Origin: Bacteroidia bacterium
GTDB taxonomy: Bacteria; Bacteroidota; Bacteroidia; SpSt-205
Assembly (NCBI GenBank): GCA_025059535.1
Contig: JANXCX010000011.1
Location: forward strand, 124,001-188,000
Direction: 5' to 3'
Length of the DNA: 64,000 nucleotides
Of this stretch, positions 43,844 through 51,033 are shown one piece after another. The notes beneath the pieces were generated by a model. That model was not told where the DNA came from. It saw nothing but the letters and a program-made list of their open reading frames with translations, and did not search any database. Positions within the stretch are counted from its first letter, which is position 1, and each line of letters opens with the position of its first letter. Position numbers and translations under genes: made by a program.

Positions 43844-44524
43844 TTAGCTTGGGCTCGGCTCAGGCACAAAGCGGTAACCTACCCCTTTGAGGGTCTCTAT
43901 GTACTCCGCTCCAATTTTCTCCCGCAGTTTGCGTATATGCACATCCACCGTGCGCGGCACTACCCAGGTATCACTGCCCCACACCCGCTCCAGAAGGTGC
44001 TGCCGGGAAAAGTACCTATAAGGCCGGCTGGCCAGAGTAAAAAGGAGTTCAAATTCCTTTTTTGAGAGGGGGATCACTTGGCCGCGCTTATGGACGGCAT
44101 AGGCGTCCGGTACAATCTCTAGGCCAGGAAATTGCAGCCTATGAAAGGGTATGGCCCGCCGCGCCAGAGCTTTTAGACGGCTGAGAAGCGCTTTTGGACG
44201 AATCGGCTTGACCAAGAAATCGTCCGCGCCGGCCTCAAAGCCCGCTAGCTCCGCAAATTCCTCCGAACGGGCGGTAAGGAAGAGGATGTAGCTTTCTCGG
44301 GTTTCGGGTAGCTGACGCAGCGCGCGACACACCTGAAGCCCATCCATCCCTGGCATCATAATGTCCAGAAGGATTATTGCGGGCTGATGCTGGCGCGCAA
44401 GCTGCAGAGCTGTCTCCCCTTCCTCAGCCAAAATCGGCTCATACCCCTCCTGCCGAAGATTGTAACCTAAAATCTCCAAAACATCCGGCTCATCATCCAC
44501 GATTAGGACTTTGCGATTGAGCAT
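43844..44524 (-). CDS. OmpR/PhoB-type response regulator
   Basis: 226 aa. Receiver domain with DDEPDVLEI (acidic pocket), phospho-acceptor Asp in IILLDIMMPGMDG near residue 54 and Lys in DDFLVKPIRPKALLSRL; C-terminal winged helix with DVHIRKLREKIG. No histidine kinase is encoded within the window, so the partner is unknown. The start is 4 nt after TACCTTGG, a -7 variant. Confidence 0.92.
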   Translation of the reverse strand: MLNRKVLIVDDEPDVLEILGYNLRQEGYEPILAEEGETALQLARQHQPAIILLDIMMPGMDGLQVCRALRQLPETRESYILFLTARSEEFAELAGFEAGADDFLVKPIRPKALLSRLKALARRAIPFHRLQFPGLEIVPDAYAVHKRGQVIPLSKKEFELLFTLASRPYRYFSRQHLLERVWGSDTWVVPRTVDVHIRKLREKIGAEYIETLKGVGYRFVPEPSPS

Positions 44525-44558: not shown

Positions 44559-45386
44559 TTAATCCACGCCTACCACGTGTCGGCCTCCTTGACTGGCCCA
44601 GCGGCGCAGGCGCGCACGCGTAGAGTCTGAGAGGGGATTGCCCCGCACATCCAAGTACCTAAGATTTGGGAGAGTGTAAAGCTCAAGGGGGAGGTCTATG
44701 AGCTCATTGTACTGGAGCTCTAGATGCGTAAGGAATCTCAGGTCGCCTAAGCCGCGCGGAAGCACCCGCAGACGGTTATGGCCTAGCCTAAGCCTACGCA
44801 GAAAGGCCCAATGGGTAATGCCGCTCGGCAGTACGGTCAAGCGATTGTGCGAAAAATCTGCTTCTTCAACATGGGAGAGGGTCCAGAGCCCTGGAGGTAA
44901 GGCCGAAAGTTTATTGTGCGAAAGGTCTAAACGGCGCAGAGAAGCCGAAAGCCTCAGGTAAGGAGGCAGTTGCATAAAGCCATAGCCCCTAAGCTCGGCT
45001 TCCTTAGGCTTATAGGGGTGAAGCCAAGTATAGACCACCGTAAGGCCTACAATAAGCATAAAAACCCCTCCCAATAGCCAGCTTAGGTAGGCGGGTACAG
45101 GGGGAGAGACAGGTTTCGTGCGCAAATAGGGGAAAGGCTGAGGCGCTGGCTGCGCCAACCGACGGAGAGCCAAAAGCCGCAAATCGTAAGCCAGCCGCAA
45201 ATGCGGGGTAGTAAGCGTCCTGTAAGCCTCATTCAGGAGGCGCATACGGCGCTCGGCTTCGGGCGAGGGATTTACATCAGGGTGGTATTGTTTAGCTAGC
45301 TCTCGGTAGCGTAGCTTTATGGCTTCCGCTGATGCCCCAAAAGGTACCCCCAGCAGATCATAGTAGGTTTCGCTTCGGTCGGCCAT
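44559..45386 (-). CDS. J-domain - transmembrane - leucine-rich-repeat protein
   Basis: 275 aa with an unusual layout. J domain at residues 7-70 (YYDLLGVPFGASAEAI, HPD at 35-37), Pro-rich linker 78-98, one membrane span 101-122 (LSWLLGGVFMLIVGLTVVYTWL in part), then five or so 23-residue leucine-rich repeats from about 148 to 253 (LRRLDLSHNKLSALPPGLWTL type). With the J domain in the cytosol the LRRs would be periplasmic. It could recruit Hsp70 to a membrane or envelope-sensing site. Followed by an orphan response regulator. Confidence 0.82.
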   Translation of the reverse strand: MADRSETYYDLLGVPFGASAEAIKLRYRELAKQYHPDVNPSPEAERRMRLLNEAYRTLTTPHLRLAYDLRLLALRRLAQPAPQPFPYLRTKPVSPPVPAYLSWLLGGVFMLIVGLTVVYTWLHPYKPKEAELRGYGFMQLPPYLRLSASLRRLDLSHNKLSALPPGLWTLSHVEEADFSHNRLTVLPSGITHWAFLRRLRLGHNRLRVLPRGLGDLRFLTHLELQYNELIDLPLELYTLPNLRYLDVRGNPLSDSTRARLRRWASQGGRHVVGVD

Positions 45387-45425: not shown

Positions 45426-47030
45426 ATGCGATACAGCTGGTTAGGGCTCTTGACCTTAGTTTGGGCGCAGGATGCCGACCTTTTCCTTGGCAGTGAGATA
45501 TACAGCTATTTAGAGCGGTGGGACGTGCGCGCTAAGCTAACCTCCCCAATCCCCATAGAAACGCGTCCTTGGGGAAAGGAGGAGGCGTATGGTTGGCTCC
45601 TAGAGCTAGATCCCAACCAGCTGCATCCCTTGGATCGGGCGCGCTATCGTCGGGCTTTGTTTCTTTTAGGCGATACCTTACCGGCGCGCCGCCGCTTTCT
45701 TACTGGGCTTTTCCCCGAGCGGCGTGATTTGGTCGTGGCACGCCATGAGGGACTTGAATTGTATGCTGGACCCCTCCTATGGGGCTACCTGGGGCGAGAT
45801 ACTGCTTCAACTCTCCTCTACCAAAATACCCGCGGCGCCTATCTCCGCCTGCGATTGGGAAAAAAAGTGGCTCTCTATGGGGACTTTTTAGAGACCCAGA
45901 CCCGCCCCCCCTTTTTCGTCCAGACCCGCTATACCTTATACCAGACCCTCTGGGGTGAGGCCTTCGTGAAGCCCTTCCGCTCTACAGGCTTTGATTACAC
46001 TAATACGCGCGGCTACCTCACCTATACCCCTAATCGCTACCTCCGCCTCAAAGTAGGACGCGACAAAGCCTTCTGGGGCATGGGCTTTCAAAGCCTGAGT
46101 TTAGGCGACTATGCCCCCGAGTACCTGTATCTCCACCTGCGCTGGCGAACCCACCGATGGGAATATCACACGCTTTTTGCCCAGCTAATAGACTTTCTCC
46201 CCAATAAGCCCGATGCCTGGGGGGATCACCCCCGTAAATACGCCGCCCTCCATCAGTTTATATGGCGCCCTAGGCGTACCCTCAGCATAGGCGTCTGGGA
46301 AGGCCTCATGTACAACCCCTGGACGCCGCGTGGCCCCCGCGGCCTAGAGCTGAACTACTTCATCCCTATAATCTTCTACCGCAGCATAGAACAGGTTTTA
46401 GGCAGCCCCGACAATGCATTTATAGGGATTTTCGGGCGGGCCAATCTTCTGCGTCGCCTCCAGCTCTACGGGCAGCTCATAATAGATGACTATAACTTCA
46501 GCAAGCGACGCGAAGGGCGTGGCTGGTGGGGGAATAAATACGCCTGGCAGGTAGGGCTGAAGGTCTTTGACCTTGGCCTGCCTACCTTAGACCTCCGCCT
46601 AGAGCTTACCGAAATACGCCCCTACACTTATAGCCACTCTAATGTAGGCGCCAACTGGAGCCATTATGGCCAATTTCTCGCCCATCCGTACGGCGCAAAC
46701 CTGCGCGACTTCACCGCCCTCCTCACTTGGCAACCCCTCCCGGGTCTTACCCTAGAAGGACGCGCCAGCTTTATCCAACAGGGGCAAAACCGCCCAGGCG
46801 AAAACTGGGGCAGCGATATTTTCCAAACCGACATGACTTACATGCGTGCCTTCGGCAATCAGCTTCTCCAAGGCGAACGCACTACCTACCGGCTCTTACA
46901 CGGACGCCTAATTTACCAGCCCACCCTGCTTCCGCTTTACCTAGAGGCAGAGGGCTTTCATCGTAATAACCTAATCGGCGCTCTGGTAGGCCTGCGATGG
47001 ATGCTGCCCCCAAAGGTCCTACGCTTCTAA
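45426..47030 (+). CDS. Capsule-assembly Wzi / gliding RemB-like outer-membrane barrel
   Basis: 534 aa. A 14-residue signal peptide MRYSWLGLLTLVWA then Gln. GRDKAFWGMGFQSLSLGDYAP near residue 217 and LFAQLIDF near 259 resemble the conserved core of Wzi-like and RemB proteins of Bacteroidota. The remainder is beta-strand-rich. Wzi holds capsule at the surface in enterobacteria and RemB aids gliding in Flavobacterium; which role applies here is open. The promoter position fixes the start. Confidence 0.72.
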   Translation: MRYSWLGLLTLVWAQDADLFLGSEIYSYLERWDVRAKLTSPIPIETRPWGKEEAYGWLLELDPNQLHPLDRARYRRALFLLGDTLPARRRFLTGLFPERRDLVVARHEGLELYAGPLLWGYLGRDTASTLLYQNTRGAYLRLRLGKKVALYGDFLETQTRPPFFVQTRYTLYQTLWGEAFVKPFRSTGFDYTNTRGYLTYTPNRYLRLKVGRDKAFWGMGFQSLSLGDYAPEYLYLHLRWRTHRWEYHTLFAQLIDFLPNKPDAWGDHPRKYAALHQFIWRPRRTLSIGVWEGLMYNPWTPRGPRGLELNYFIPIIFYRSIEQVLGSPDNAFIGIFGRANLLRRLQLYGQLIIDDYNFSKRREGRGWWGNKYAWQVGLKVFDLGLPTLDLRLELTEIRPYTYSHSNVGANWSHYGQFLAHPYGANLRDFTALLTWQPLPGLTLEGRASFIQQGQNRPGENWGSDIFQTDMTYMRAFGNQLLQGERTTYRLLHGRLIYQPTLLPLYLEAEGFHRNNLIGALVGLRWMLPPKVLRF

Positions 47031-47049: not shown

Positions 47050-50000
47050 GTGAAGGACGAGCCCATACCTCCTTTTCCTCCGAACTTACTTTTTGAGGTA
47101 AGTTGGGAGGTAGCGCACAAAGTCGGGGGCATCCACACCGTACTTGTAGGTAAAGCTCCTCTCCTGCAGCAGCAGTGGAACGGCCTATACCTCCTCATCG
47201 GGCCCTACCTACCCCAGGAAAATAGTGGTTGGACGTCGGATCCTACCCTTTATGCGGAGTGGCGGGCCTATTTCCAGCAGCGCTACAACCTATCCGTGTA
47301 TGCGGGCTACTGGCACATAAATGAAGCTCGCCTACCTACCCTTCTCATAGACTTCTACCCCGCCATCGCCCAGAAAGATGCCATTTTTGCAAGCTGGTGG
47401 CAAAAGTTCGGCGTTGAATCCCTCTGGGGCGGCTGGGAGTACATAGAGCCAGCCATTTTCGGCTATGTAGCGGGTCAGGTCATCCAGAGCTTCAGGGAGT
47501 TCTACTATGGGGAGGTAGAGACCTTGGCCCATTTCCACGAATGGCTGACGGGAGGGGGTATCTTGTATCTCAAAGCCCATGCTCCCACGGTAGCTACCCT
47601 TTTTACTATCCATGCTACGGTAGCGGGACGTGCCGCAGGTGGTGAGCTTATTCCCCGCGACCAGCTATGGAACTGGCTGCGTACCCGTAACCTCCTCAGC
47701 AAACACACCCTAGAACAAGCGGCTTGGCAGCAGGCGGATGCCGTAACTACCATCAGCCCCCAAATAAGCCAAGAAGCCTTGCATTACTTAGGGCGGGCGG
47801 CTGACCTTATCACGCCAAATGGCTGGAATCCACCTCCTAACCTGCCTGTAGGGGCGGCGCGCGAGTGGCTTGACCGCCTCAGCCAAGCCTGGGGTTGCAA
47901 CCCCCAAACCTTCTGGTTGCTTCACAGTGGCCGCCCTGAATTGGAAAATAAGGGCACCCTCGCCCTCCTAGAGGCCTTACGCTTGTACCAGCAGAATCCC
48001 CTGCCTGACCAGACTTTAGCGGTTATACTGGCCCTCCCAGCGGCCCATGAAGGCCCAGCCGGCCCCCCCACCAAACCCCTCTGGATAAGTCATAAACTCA
48101 CCCAACCCCAGGAAAATCCCCTCTACCGCCTTTTGGAGAGATGGGAATTTGTCCATCCCCAAAGCCTACGCCTGGCGTACATACCCGTTTATCTGGAGGG
48201 GCAAGATGGGGTGGTGAATTTGCCCTACTATGCCCTCTTAGGGGCCGTAGAGGCGTCGGCCTTTCCCTCACGCTACGAACCGTGGGGTTATACGCCCCAG
48301 GAAAGCCTAGGCATGGGCACCCCCACCCTTTCTTCGCAGCAGGCGGGCTTTGGGCAATGGATAAAAGCCCACCTAAAAAGCCCTTCCGAAGCCCTCACGC
48401 TCATAGACTATAGCCTGCCCGACGTGCCCAAGCAAATTTTGGACTGGCTTTATCGGCGCCTTCAGACTCCCCTGCCCCAGCGACTGGCCTTACGCCAAGA
48501 AGCTCGACGCCTGGCCGAGCTTACTCGCTGGATACATTTTCTGCCTTTCTACCACCGGGCCTACCAGCTGGCTCAAACCAAAGCCCAGGCCCGCCTCTGG
48601 CAACGCCTCACCCCCTTCCAAACCGCCGAAAAAAAGACCTTCATCTGGCATCGCGCCTTTTTCTTACCTAACCTGCCCGAAGAGCTCAAGCCCCTCCGCA
48701 GCTTAGCCTACAATCTCTGGTGGAGTTGGAACGCTGACGCTCAGGAGCTTTTCCGCCTGATTGACCCGCCTAACTGGGAGCACTACGAAAATCCTGTCTG
48801 GCTTCTCAATCATACGCCGCAGCGCCGCTGGCAGGAACTCGTTCAAGAGGAGGACTTTCTGCGTCTCTTTCGTCAGGTCTTGCAGCGCTTCCAGACCTAC
48901 ATGGCCGCACCCCTCAAGGCCAACCGCCCGCGCGTAGCCTACCTCTGCCTAGAGTACGGCCTGGCTAAATGCCTCCCCTTCTACGCAGGCGGGTTAGGTG
49001 TATTAGCAGGCGACTACCTCAAAGAAGCCAGCGACCAAGGCTACCCCCTCCTCGCCATCGGCCTTCTCTACCGGCAGGGCTACTTCACCCAGCGGATCAA
49101 CGCCCAAGGCGAACAGATTGCCGAAACCTCTAACCTGCGCTTTACTGACCTGCCTTTAGAGCCTGTGCGCCAACCCGATGGCCGCTGGCTCCGCCTCAAA
49201 CTCACCTTCGGCCCTATGCCCATCTTTCTCAAGGTATGGGTAGTCCACGTCGGACGCGTACCCCTGTACCTATTAGATGCCGATCTGTCCGAAAACCCCC
49301 CCGAGGTACGCGCAATTACCGCCCAACTCTACAGCGGCAATCCCGAGACCCGCCTACTGCAGGAACTCGTCTTAGGCTTTGGTACTCAGGCCCTTATAGA
49401 AGCGCTGCCAGCGCAGGTGGAGGTATTTCACTACAACGAAGGGCATTCAGCCTTCCACCTTCTAGCCTACTGGCTGGCGCGCCGGCGCCAAGGCCTATCC
49501 TTGGAAGCCGCCCAACTTGAAACGCGCACCTGTACGCTCTTCACTACCCATACCCCCGTACCCGCTGGTCATGAGGCTATTTCGCCCGAGCATCTCCGCA
49601 CCCATCTCCACTCAAGTCTGCTACAAGAATTGGGAATCAGCTGGGACACTCTACTGGAATGGGGGCTCATGCCCGACCAGCCAACTAAGTTTTCTCTAAC
49701 AGCTTTCTGCCTGCGCTTTTGCGCCCGCACCAATGCCGTAAGCCAATTACATGCGCGCGTCTCGCAGCGGATGTTCGCTTCGCTTTACCCAGGCTATCTA
49801 GCGGTGGAAGTGCCCGTCAAGGGCATAACTAACGGCATCCACCTACAAAGCTGGCGAGCGCCCGAATGGACCCAATCCACATGCCCTTGGGAGACGCACC
49901 AGAGGCTCAAGCGCGCCCTGCTGAGCTACCTCCGTCGCCGCCTTTATGCCCAAGCGGGACCCGTGGCGTACTTAGAAGCGTTGCAAGCCTTTCTTTCTGA

Positions 50001-51033
50001 AACGGACGAGGAGACGCTTTTGATGGGGTTTGCGCGTCGCTTTGCCACTTACAAGCGCCATCTTTTGCTTTTTCAGTATGAAGGCTTAGCTCGGCTCTTT
50101 GCGGAGGCGCCTGTGCGCCTTATCCTCGCTGGCAAGGCCCATCCCAACGATGAAGCTGGCAAAATGGCCCTCAAAACGGTTTGGCAAAAGGCCCTTGAGC
50201 CCCCCTTCAAAGGCAAAGTGCTCTTTATACCCGACTACGATATGCAGCTTGCCCGGTATTTGGTGCAGGGCGTGGATGTCTGGCTCAATCTCCCTATTTG
50301 CGGCTTGGAAGCGAGCGGCACCAGCGGGATGAAAGCCGCCCTAAATGGAGTCCTGCATGTTAGTATACCGGACGGCTGGTGGGCCGAAGTAGAGGCGGAG
50401 GCCGCTGGCGGCTGGACCGTGCCCACCTGTATCACCCAAGACTCCGCTATCCGCGATGCGTGGGAAGCAGCCCAGCTGGCCTATCTACTGCGAGAAGAGG
50501 TGCTTCCGCTCTTCCGGCGACGCAATGCCCACGGGAAGCCTACGGAATGGATCCAGCGCATGGTCAAAGCGCAAACCTACCTCCTCCACTACTTTTCTAC
50601 CCAACGCATGCTGGGCCAGTATGAAACCCTCTTCTACCAGCCTATAGCCGAAGCCCGCCGAGCGCTTACCCCCGAAAGGCAAGCCTACCTCCTAAATCTG
50701 CACCAAAAGCTGCAGAAAAGCTGGGACGCTGTCCAGGTAAAGCGCCTAAGTCTCCCTCCCTTTGCCGAAAAGCCTTATCCCGCTGAAGTGGCCTTCACCC
50801 TAGAGGCTGAGATAGACCTACACGATTTACCCGAGGAGGCCATAGGGATAGAGCTAGTCCTTGTAAGCCCAGAGGAGGAGGTACGCACCTTCCCACTTGC
50901 CCGCGTAGGGCCAGGCCTTTACCAAGGTACGGTGGAGGTAAAAGATGCCGGCGTATATCAATATGCCCTCCGCCTATTTGCCCGAAATCCCTTCTCCCAA
51001 GAGCGGCTCTGGGAATGGGTAAAGCTGATTTAG
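47050..51033 (+). CDS. Fused GT3 glycogen synthase and GT35 alpha-glucan phosphorylase
   Basis: 1327 aa from a GTG. Residues about 1-525 are a GT3 (animal/fungal-type) glycogen synthase: FEVSWEVAHKVGGIHTV near 15-31 and the two catalytic Glu in YEPWGYTPQE (E410, E418). Residues about 540-1230 are an alpha-glucan phosphorylase with EVFHYNEGHSAFH, TTHTPVPAGHE and the PLP site GTSGMKAALNG (Lys about 1095). A beta-rich tail (about 1235-1327) may bind glucan. One chain would hold both synthesis and breakdown of glycogen. Such fusions occur in Bacteroidota. The Arg-rich G6P-sensing helix of eukaryotic GT3 enzymes is only partly present. Confidence 0.9.
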   Translation: MKDEPIPPFPPNLLFEVSWEVAHKVGGIHTVLVGKAPLLQQQWNGLYLLIGPYLPQENSGWTSDPTLYAEWRAYFQQRYNLSVYAGYWHINEARLPTLLIDFYPAIAQKDAIFASWWQKFGVESLWGGWEYIEPAIFGYVAGQVIQSFREFYYGEVETLAHFHEWLTGGGILYLKAHAPTVATLFTIHATVAGRAAGGELIPRDQLWNWLRTRNLLSKHTLEQAAWQQADAVTTISPQISQEALHYLGRAADLITPNGWNPPPNLPVGAAREWLDRLSQAWGCNPQTFWLLHSGRPELENKGTLALLEALRLYQQNPLPDQTLAVILALPAAHEGPAGPPTKPLWISHKLTQPQENPLYRLLERWEFVHPQSLRLAYIPVYLEGQDGVVNLPYYALLGAVEASAFPSRYEPWGYTPQESLGMGTPTLSSQQAGFGQWIKAHLKSPSEALTLIDYSLPDVPKQILDWLYRRLQTPLPQRLALRQEARRLAELTRWIHFLPFYHRAYQLAQTKAQARLWQRLTPFQTAEKKTFIWHRAFFLPNLPEELKPLRSLAYNLWWSWNADAQELFRLIDPPNWEHYENPVWLLNHTPQRRWQELVQEEDFLRLFRQVLQRFQTYMAAPLKANRPRVAYLCLEYGLAKCLPFYAGGLGVLAGDYLKEASDQGYPLLAIGLLYRQGYFTQRINAQGEQIAETSNLRFTDLPLEPVRQPDGRWLRLKLTFGPMPIFLKVWVVHVGRVPLYLLDADLSENPPEVRAITAQLYSGNPETRLLQELVLGFGTQALIEALPAQVEVFHYNEGHSAFHLLAYWLARRRQGLSLEAAQLETRTCTLFTTHTPVPAGHEAISPEHLRTHLHSSLLQELGISWDTLLEWGLMPDQPTKFSLTAFCLRFCARTNAVSQLHARVSQRMFASLYPGYLAVEVPVKGITNGIHLQSWRAPEWTQSTCPWETHQRLKRALLSYLRRRLYAQAGPVAYLEALQAFLSETDEETLLMGFARRFATYKRHLLLFQYEGLARLFAEAPVRLILAGKAHPNDEAGKMALKTVWQKALEPPFKGKVLFIPDYDMQLARYLVQGVDVWLNLPICGLEASGTSGMKAALNGVLHVSIPDGWWAEVEAEAAGGWTVPTCITQDSAIRDAWEAAQLAYLLREEVLPLFRRRNAHGKPTEWIQRMVKAQTYLLHYFSTQRMLGQYETLFYQPIAEARRALTPERQAYLLNLHQKLQKSWDAVQVKRLSLPPFAEKPYPAEVAFTLEAEIDLHDLPEEAIGIELVLVSPEEEVRTFPLARVGPGLYQGTVEVKDAGVYQYALRLFARNPFSQERLWEWVKLI

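Follow-up and report, generated by a model that had tools for sequence, protein, structure and literature searches.

A predicted membrane-anchored J protein with leucine-rich repeats in one Bacteroidia family

A 275-residue protein encoded in the genome of a Bacteroidia bacterium joins a J domain, a linker, a single predicted transmembrane helix and a leucine-rich repeat (LRR) solenoid in one chain. The gene lies in a stretch of 64,000 nucleotides (the window; contig JANXCX010000011.1 of assembly GCA_025059535.1). The full-length architecture was found in all 12 of the sampled genomes of the family, 11 from the genus and one from a sister genus, which is conservation far beyond chance. The protein, referred to below as J-LRR, is interpreted as a membrane-anchored class C J protein in which the LRR would hold DnaK at one place on the inner membrane, a reading that we consider fairly probable.

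Domain architecture and predicted fold

The features of the locus, with the evidence for each in brackets, are as follows.

44559..45386, minus strand: whole open reading frame of 275 residues, J domain, linker, transmembrane helix and LRR (Pfam, AlphaFold2, orthologue alignment)
45183..45368, minus strand: J domain, residues 7-68, with HPD at 35-37 (Pfam DnaJ, AlphaFold2 helices, alignment with the genome's own DnaJ and CbpA)
45093..45182, minus strand: extended helix IV and a disordered, variable, K/R-rich linker, residues 69-98 (pLDDT, conservation)
45021..45092, minus strand: single predicted transmembrane helix, residues 99-122 (AlphaFold2 helix, hydropathy, same place in relatives)
44637..45002, minus strand: LRR solenoid, residues 129-250, six strands at 23-residue spacing (Pfam, AlphaFold2, conservation, Foldseek)
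44562..44636, minus strand: C-terminal cap, residues 251-275 (AlphaFold2)
45426..47030, plus strand: Wzi-like outer-membrane barrel gene, divergent neighbour of J-LRR (weak Pfam Caps_assemb_Wzi match, below cut-off)
43844..44524, minus strand: PhoB/OmpR-type response regulator gene, judged unrelated to J-LRR (Pfam; adjoins J-LRR in this genome only)

A preliminary description, made from the DNA letters and their open reading frames, had given the coordinates of the reading frame exactly, without naming its strand, which is the minus strand, and the order of J domain, span and LRR that it proposed was borne out by Pfam, by AlphaFold2 and by the family genomes. The J domain matched the Pfam DnaJ family with 67.9 bits (E 8e-19, cut-off 27.8), with the HPD motif intact as had been reported. 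Between residues 149 and 254, matches above the respective cut-offs were obtained for LRR_8 (54.6 bits), LRR_4 (52.1 bits) and LRR_1 (44.3 bits). The structure was predicted with AlphaFold2 from an alignment of 11 orthologues, and the mean pLDDT was 89.9. Four helices form the predicted J domain (residues 8-12, 20-34, 42-59 and 61-78), followed by a disordered part of the linker with pLDDT below 50 at residues 82-93. One helix of 24 residues was predicted with high confidence at 99-122, close to the single span first placed at 101-122, and the helix of the orthologues is hydrophobic and matches in position. The LRR strands fall at residues 129, 152, 175, 198, 221 and 244. The 23-residue spacing of the repeats had been read correctly; against the first count of about five, six strands were predicted, the first of them in the N-terminal cap. 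The C-terminal cap comprises a predicted helix at 254-264 and a strand at 270-272.

The repeats have the length (20-29 residues), the LxxLxLxxN pattern and the predicted solenoid fold of tandem LRRs. When the model was compared with the PDB by Foldseek, the best matches were Leptospira LRR proteins and SHOC2, in accord with the sequence search. LRR models of type III effectors (XopAC, XopL and SlrP) scored far below all cut-offs, with matches confined to the repeats, and this assignment was rejected. The pTM of the model was 0.58, so that the placement of the J domain relative to the LRR is not fixed by it; such a value is expected, because a flexible linker joins two rigid parts. Only DnaJ and LRR families passed the Pfam cut-offs. 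Neither a G/F region nor a zinc finger nor a DnaJ C-terminal domain was found by Pfam and reading, nor a TerB match by Pfam, and a J domain with HPD lacking the first three is that of a class C J protein. Relatives do not keep, at that place, the TAnnTTTG motif that is present here 24 bp ahead of the J-LRR start.

Conservation and gene neighbourhood

Homologues were sought first in 40 relatives and then at three wider ranks: the order (all 13 genomes), the class (395 genomes) and the phylum (395 genomes). The full-length protein was absent from the 383 other class genomes and from the phylum sample, the only other class-level match at the same threshold being an LRR-only protein in genome G186. 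The preliminary description had allowed for a lack of homologues with this architecture in related genomes; this doubt falls away, because the full-length order is kept across the family. Orthologues are 39-50% identical to the protein of the window. HPD, YRELA, NEAY and the LRR frame positions are invariant in the 11 aligned orthologue rows, and the J domain (mean conservation 0.80) is better kept than the LRR (0.60), which in turn exceeds linker residues 81-98 (0.21). The surroundings of the gene vary between the species of the family. The copy in G006 (L002 1495-2316, plus strand, contig C36) contains one in-frame TGA between helix and LRR in an otherwise intact frame; this is a nonsense mutation of recent date or else an error of sequencing. 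A chimeric assembly or a chance reading frame was rejected as an explanation, as the same protein occurs in 11 other genomes in varied surroundings, in one of them with the in-frame TGA. A scan of 84,980 species genomes gave at least three full-length cases, and the matches listed (Bacteroidia bacterium KatS3mg025 and KatS3mg026, and 'Sphingobacterium sp.' RSWP8) all belong to this family; the scan was seeded on J-domain peptides, and its result is still compatible with independent fusions elsewhere. The family looks as if it arose once, in one lineage, when an LRR of the exported type described below was fused to a J domain and helix.

The response regulator gene 34 bp downstream had been described as an orphan, and this proved correct: a motif search gave no evident kinase gene beside it in the window or in the neighbourhoods of six relatives. 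Its orthologues, 75-88% identical, are present in 10 of 11 relatives at loci unrelated to J-LRR, and in none of these 10 does the regulator stand beside the J-LRR gene. The regulator is a strongly conserved orphan whose adjacency to J-LRR happens to occur in this genome. An operon of the two genes was accordingly discarded, the adjacency being private to one genome, and J-LRR lacks the conserved linkage expected of a two-component partner. The proposal of a signalling device coupled to this regulator is not supported by the comparison. In some relatives the regulator adjoins apparent rimP-nusA-infB genes (by reading).

The only neighbour kept across branches is the Wzi-like gene, which in the window starts 39 bp from J-LRR on the opposite strand. 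In six of the 11 genus genomes (G000, G001, G005, G006, G007 and G009) the two genes diverge in this way, their starts no more than about 0.1 kb apart. These six are spread over the tree, and the neighbours on the far side of either gene are not common to all of them. The two genes are apart in the clade of G002, G003, G004 and G010 (support 99/98) and in G008, and no match to the Wzi-like gene was found in the sister-genus genome G011 (66% complete), which has J-LRR. The pairing is suggestive of a functional relation, perhaps through a shared control region, with the Wzi-like protein as a possible partner. Beyond the Wzi-like gene, the window holds a reading frame of 1327 residues (47050-51033, plus strand) that reads as a fusion of a glycogen synthase and an alpha-glucan phosphorylase.

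Topology, chaperone partner and competing explanations

The preliminary description had placed the J domain in the cytosol and the LRR in the periplasm, and this arrangement is probable. In the 11 orthologues taken together, the 30-residue flank ahead of the helix has 59 K/R and 5 D/E, against 28 K/R and 15 D/E in the flank of equal length behind it. Within 15 residues on each side, K/R are equal (17 and 18), so that the assignment depends on the longer flank and on homology. The nearest matches outside the family are LRR proteins of the order and class, mostly of about 200 residues (L130, L013, L015-L018, L020 and L141), that begin with an apparent export signal, judged by eye; an LRR outside the cytosol thus seems common in this group. 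Such exported-type proteins are widespread in the class, and several end in Cys-x-Cys. ATP and DnaK are cytosolic, and therefore a working J domain must be inside. Together, the charge bias and the exported relatives speak for a J domain in the cytosol and an LRR in the periplasm, though they fall short of proof.

J-LRR is one of three J proteins in the genome of the window, beside a class A DnaJ and one like CbpA, and is also its sole LRR_8 protein. Each family genome has one DnaK (one strong Hsp70 match), split over two contigs in the draft of G011. In the alignment with the genome's DnaJ and CbpA, helix II and the HPD loop of DnaJ type are kept in the J domain of J-LRR, along with family-specific changes such as an invariant Met48 where DnaJ has Phe. 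Contact with DnaK is inferred: the inner end of J-LRR can probably call the cell's Hsp70.

In the proposed mechanism, helix 99-122 would span the inner membrane with the N-terminus inside, and the cytosolic J domain would stimulate the single DnaK. The LRR would bind a partner at the outer face, such as a membrane machine, through its periplasmic portion, or a protein leaving the translocon on export. This binding would hold the J domain, and thus DnaK, at the site of the partner, where DnaK could work on whatever the partner exposes to the cytosol or on precursors in the course of export. With about seven residues between it and the helix, the LRR should lie close to the inner membrane on its outer side, and its small size would keep it from extending far into the periplasm. 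Lacking a DnaJ C-terminal or zinc-finger domain, J-LRR needs another targeting part. Against the tether stand the balanced near-flank charges, a neighbourhood that offers only the Wzi-like gene, with the pairing lost in five of 11 genus genomes, and the stop codon between helix and LRR in G006.

The same topology would serve a transmembrane sensor, in which a ligand bound by the periplasmic LRR would change how active the J domain is and, through DnaK, modify a regulator of envelope stress, as DjlA does with the Rcs relay; to turn on Rcs, DjlA depends on its J domain being active, on DnaK and on a membrane anchor (PMC11709261). This has less support than the tether, and we regard it as unlikely: the response regulator adjoins J-LRR in one genome only, no kinase is linked to the gene in the neighbourhoods read, and the linker is disordered and variable. 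Allosteric signalling through the membrane is disfavoured by this linker, with its pLDDT below 50 at 82-93 and a conservation of 0.21 against 0.80 for the J domain; since a flexible linker lets the J domain reach, tethering is likelier than rigid signal transmission. A little less likely again is a transmembrane Hsp70 receptor, whose periplasmic LRR would sense the envelope state or an exported client and switch DnaK on the cytosolic side; such control of a bacterial Hsp70 across the membrane is, as far as we know, undescribed.

The balanced near-flank charges would also suit a protein with both ends in the cytosol, where the helix would serve for membrane association or as a hairpin, and the LRR would select clients in the cytosol for DnaK at the surface of the membrane. 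SHOC2 and Rsu1, solved LRR relatives matched by J-LRR, are cytosolic LRR proteins. Since the 24-residue helix is confidently predicted and hydrophobic in orthologues, and the nearest LRR relatives in the class look exported, this arrangement appears slightly more doubtful than the receptor. The Wzi-like neighbour raises a further reading, in which J-LRR is an assembly partner for surface polysaccharide or an outer-membrane barrel, its LRR handling the Wzi-like protein and DnaK helping the precursor at the membrane. The divergent pair persists in six genus genomes whose other neighbours are not common to all of them, and nucleotide-sugar genes (by reading) lie nearby in G005, G009 and G011. Given the separation of the pair in the clade and in G008, the sister-genus genome that holds J-LRR without a Wzi-like match, a Wzi call below the Pfam cut-off and a modelled LRR close to the inner membrane, this reading is the least probable and quite improbable.

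Relation to known J proteins

The class C J proteins form a very varied group, in which some members span the membrane and some carry protein-binding domains (PMC8215388). As a tether, J-LRR would resemble in principle DjlA, which has a single helix and a cytosolic J domain, works with DnaK at the inner membrane, is proposed to direct DnaK to Rcs proteins and affects envelope signalling, and is without a specific substrate-binding domain (PMC11709261). J-LRR shares the single transmembrane helix and a presumably cytosolic J domain. Unlike J-LRR, with its N-terminal J domain, DjlA has an N-terminal helix, a TerB-like middle, a C-terminal J domain and a short periplasmic stretch. DjlB and DjlC, tail-anchored J proteins that work with HscC (PMC8215388), likewise combine a J domain with a membrane helix; no folded domain lies beyond theirs, whereas about 150 residues of LRR follow the helix of J-LRR. 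Sec63 and Pam18 place Hsp70 at translocons (PMC13254874). With Sec63, ERj1 and Pam18 the comparison is one of principle only: a J domain on one side of the membrane, a partner-binding part elsewhere and Hsp70 pinned. These three belong to eukaryotic organelles, lack an LRR and have known translocon partners.

Closer at hand, the Bacteroidota proteins L077, L082 and L083 also have an N-terminal J domain, a single helix at a similar place and a large C-terminal part. L077 ends in TPR, and L082 and L083 in a domain without a family name (that of L082 had no Pfam match), in contrast to the LRR of J-LRR. Another Bacteroidota J protein, L142, has two helices. The exported Bacteroidia LRR proteins have repeats of the same 23-residue type, but an apparent signal peptide followed by LRR only takes the place of the N-terminal J domain and helix of J-LRR. 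No description of a J protein with LRRs was found in the literature, two surveys of J-protein architecture (Barriot 2020, Malinverni 2023) left aside. The new element would be the LRR as outer part, restricted as far as sampled to one Bacteroidia family; only the LRR partner is new, because inner-membrane J proteins that affect envelope signalling are already known (DjlA/Rcs, PMC11709261).

J-LRR may bear on the still open question of how J proteins anchored in bacterial membranes locate their clients. With a well-formed LRR across the membrane from the J domain, it would offer a simple, testable case in which the periplasm directs where Hsp70 is placed, and its LRR could be used as bait for the site.
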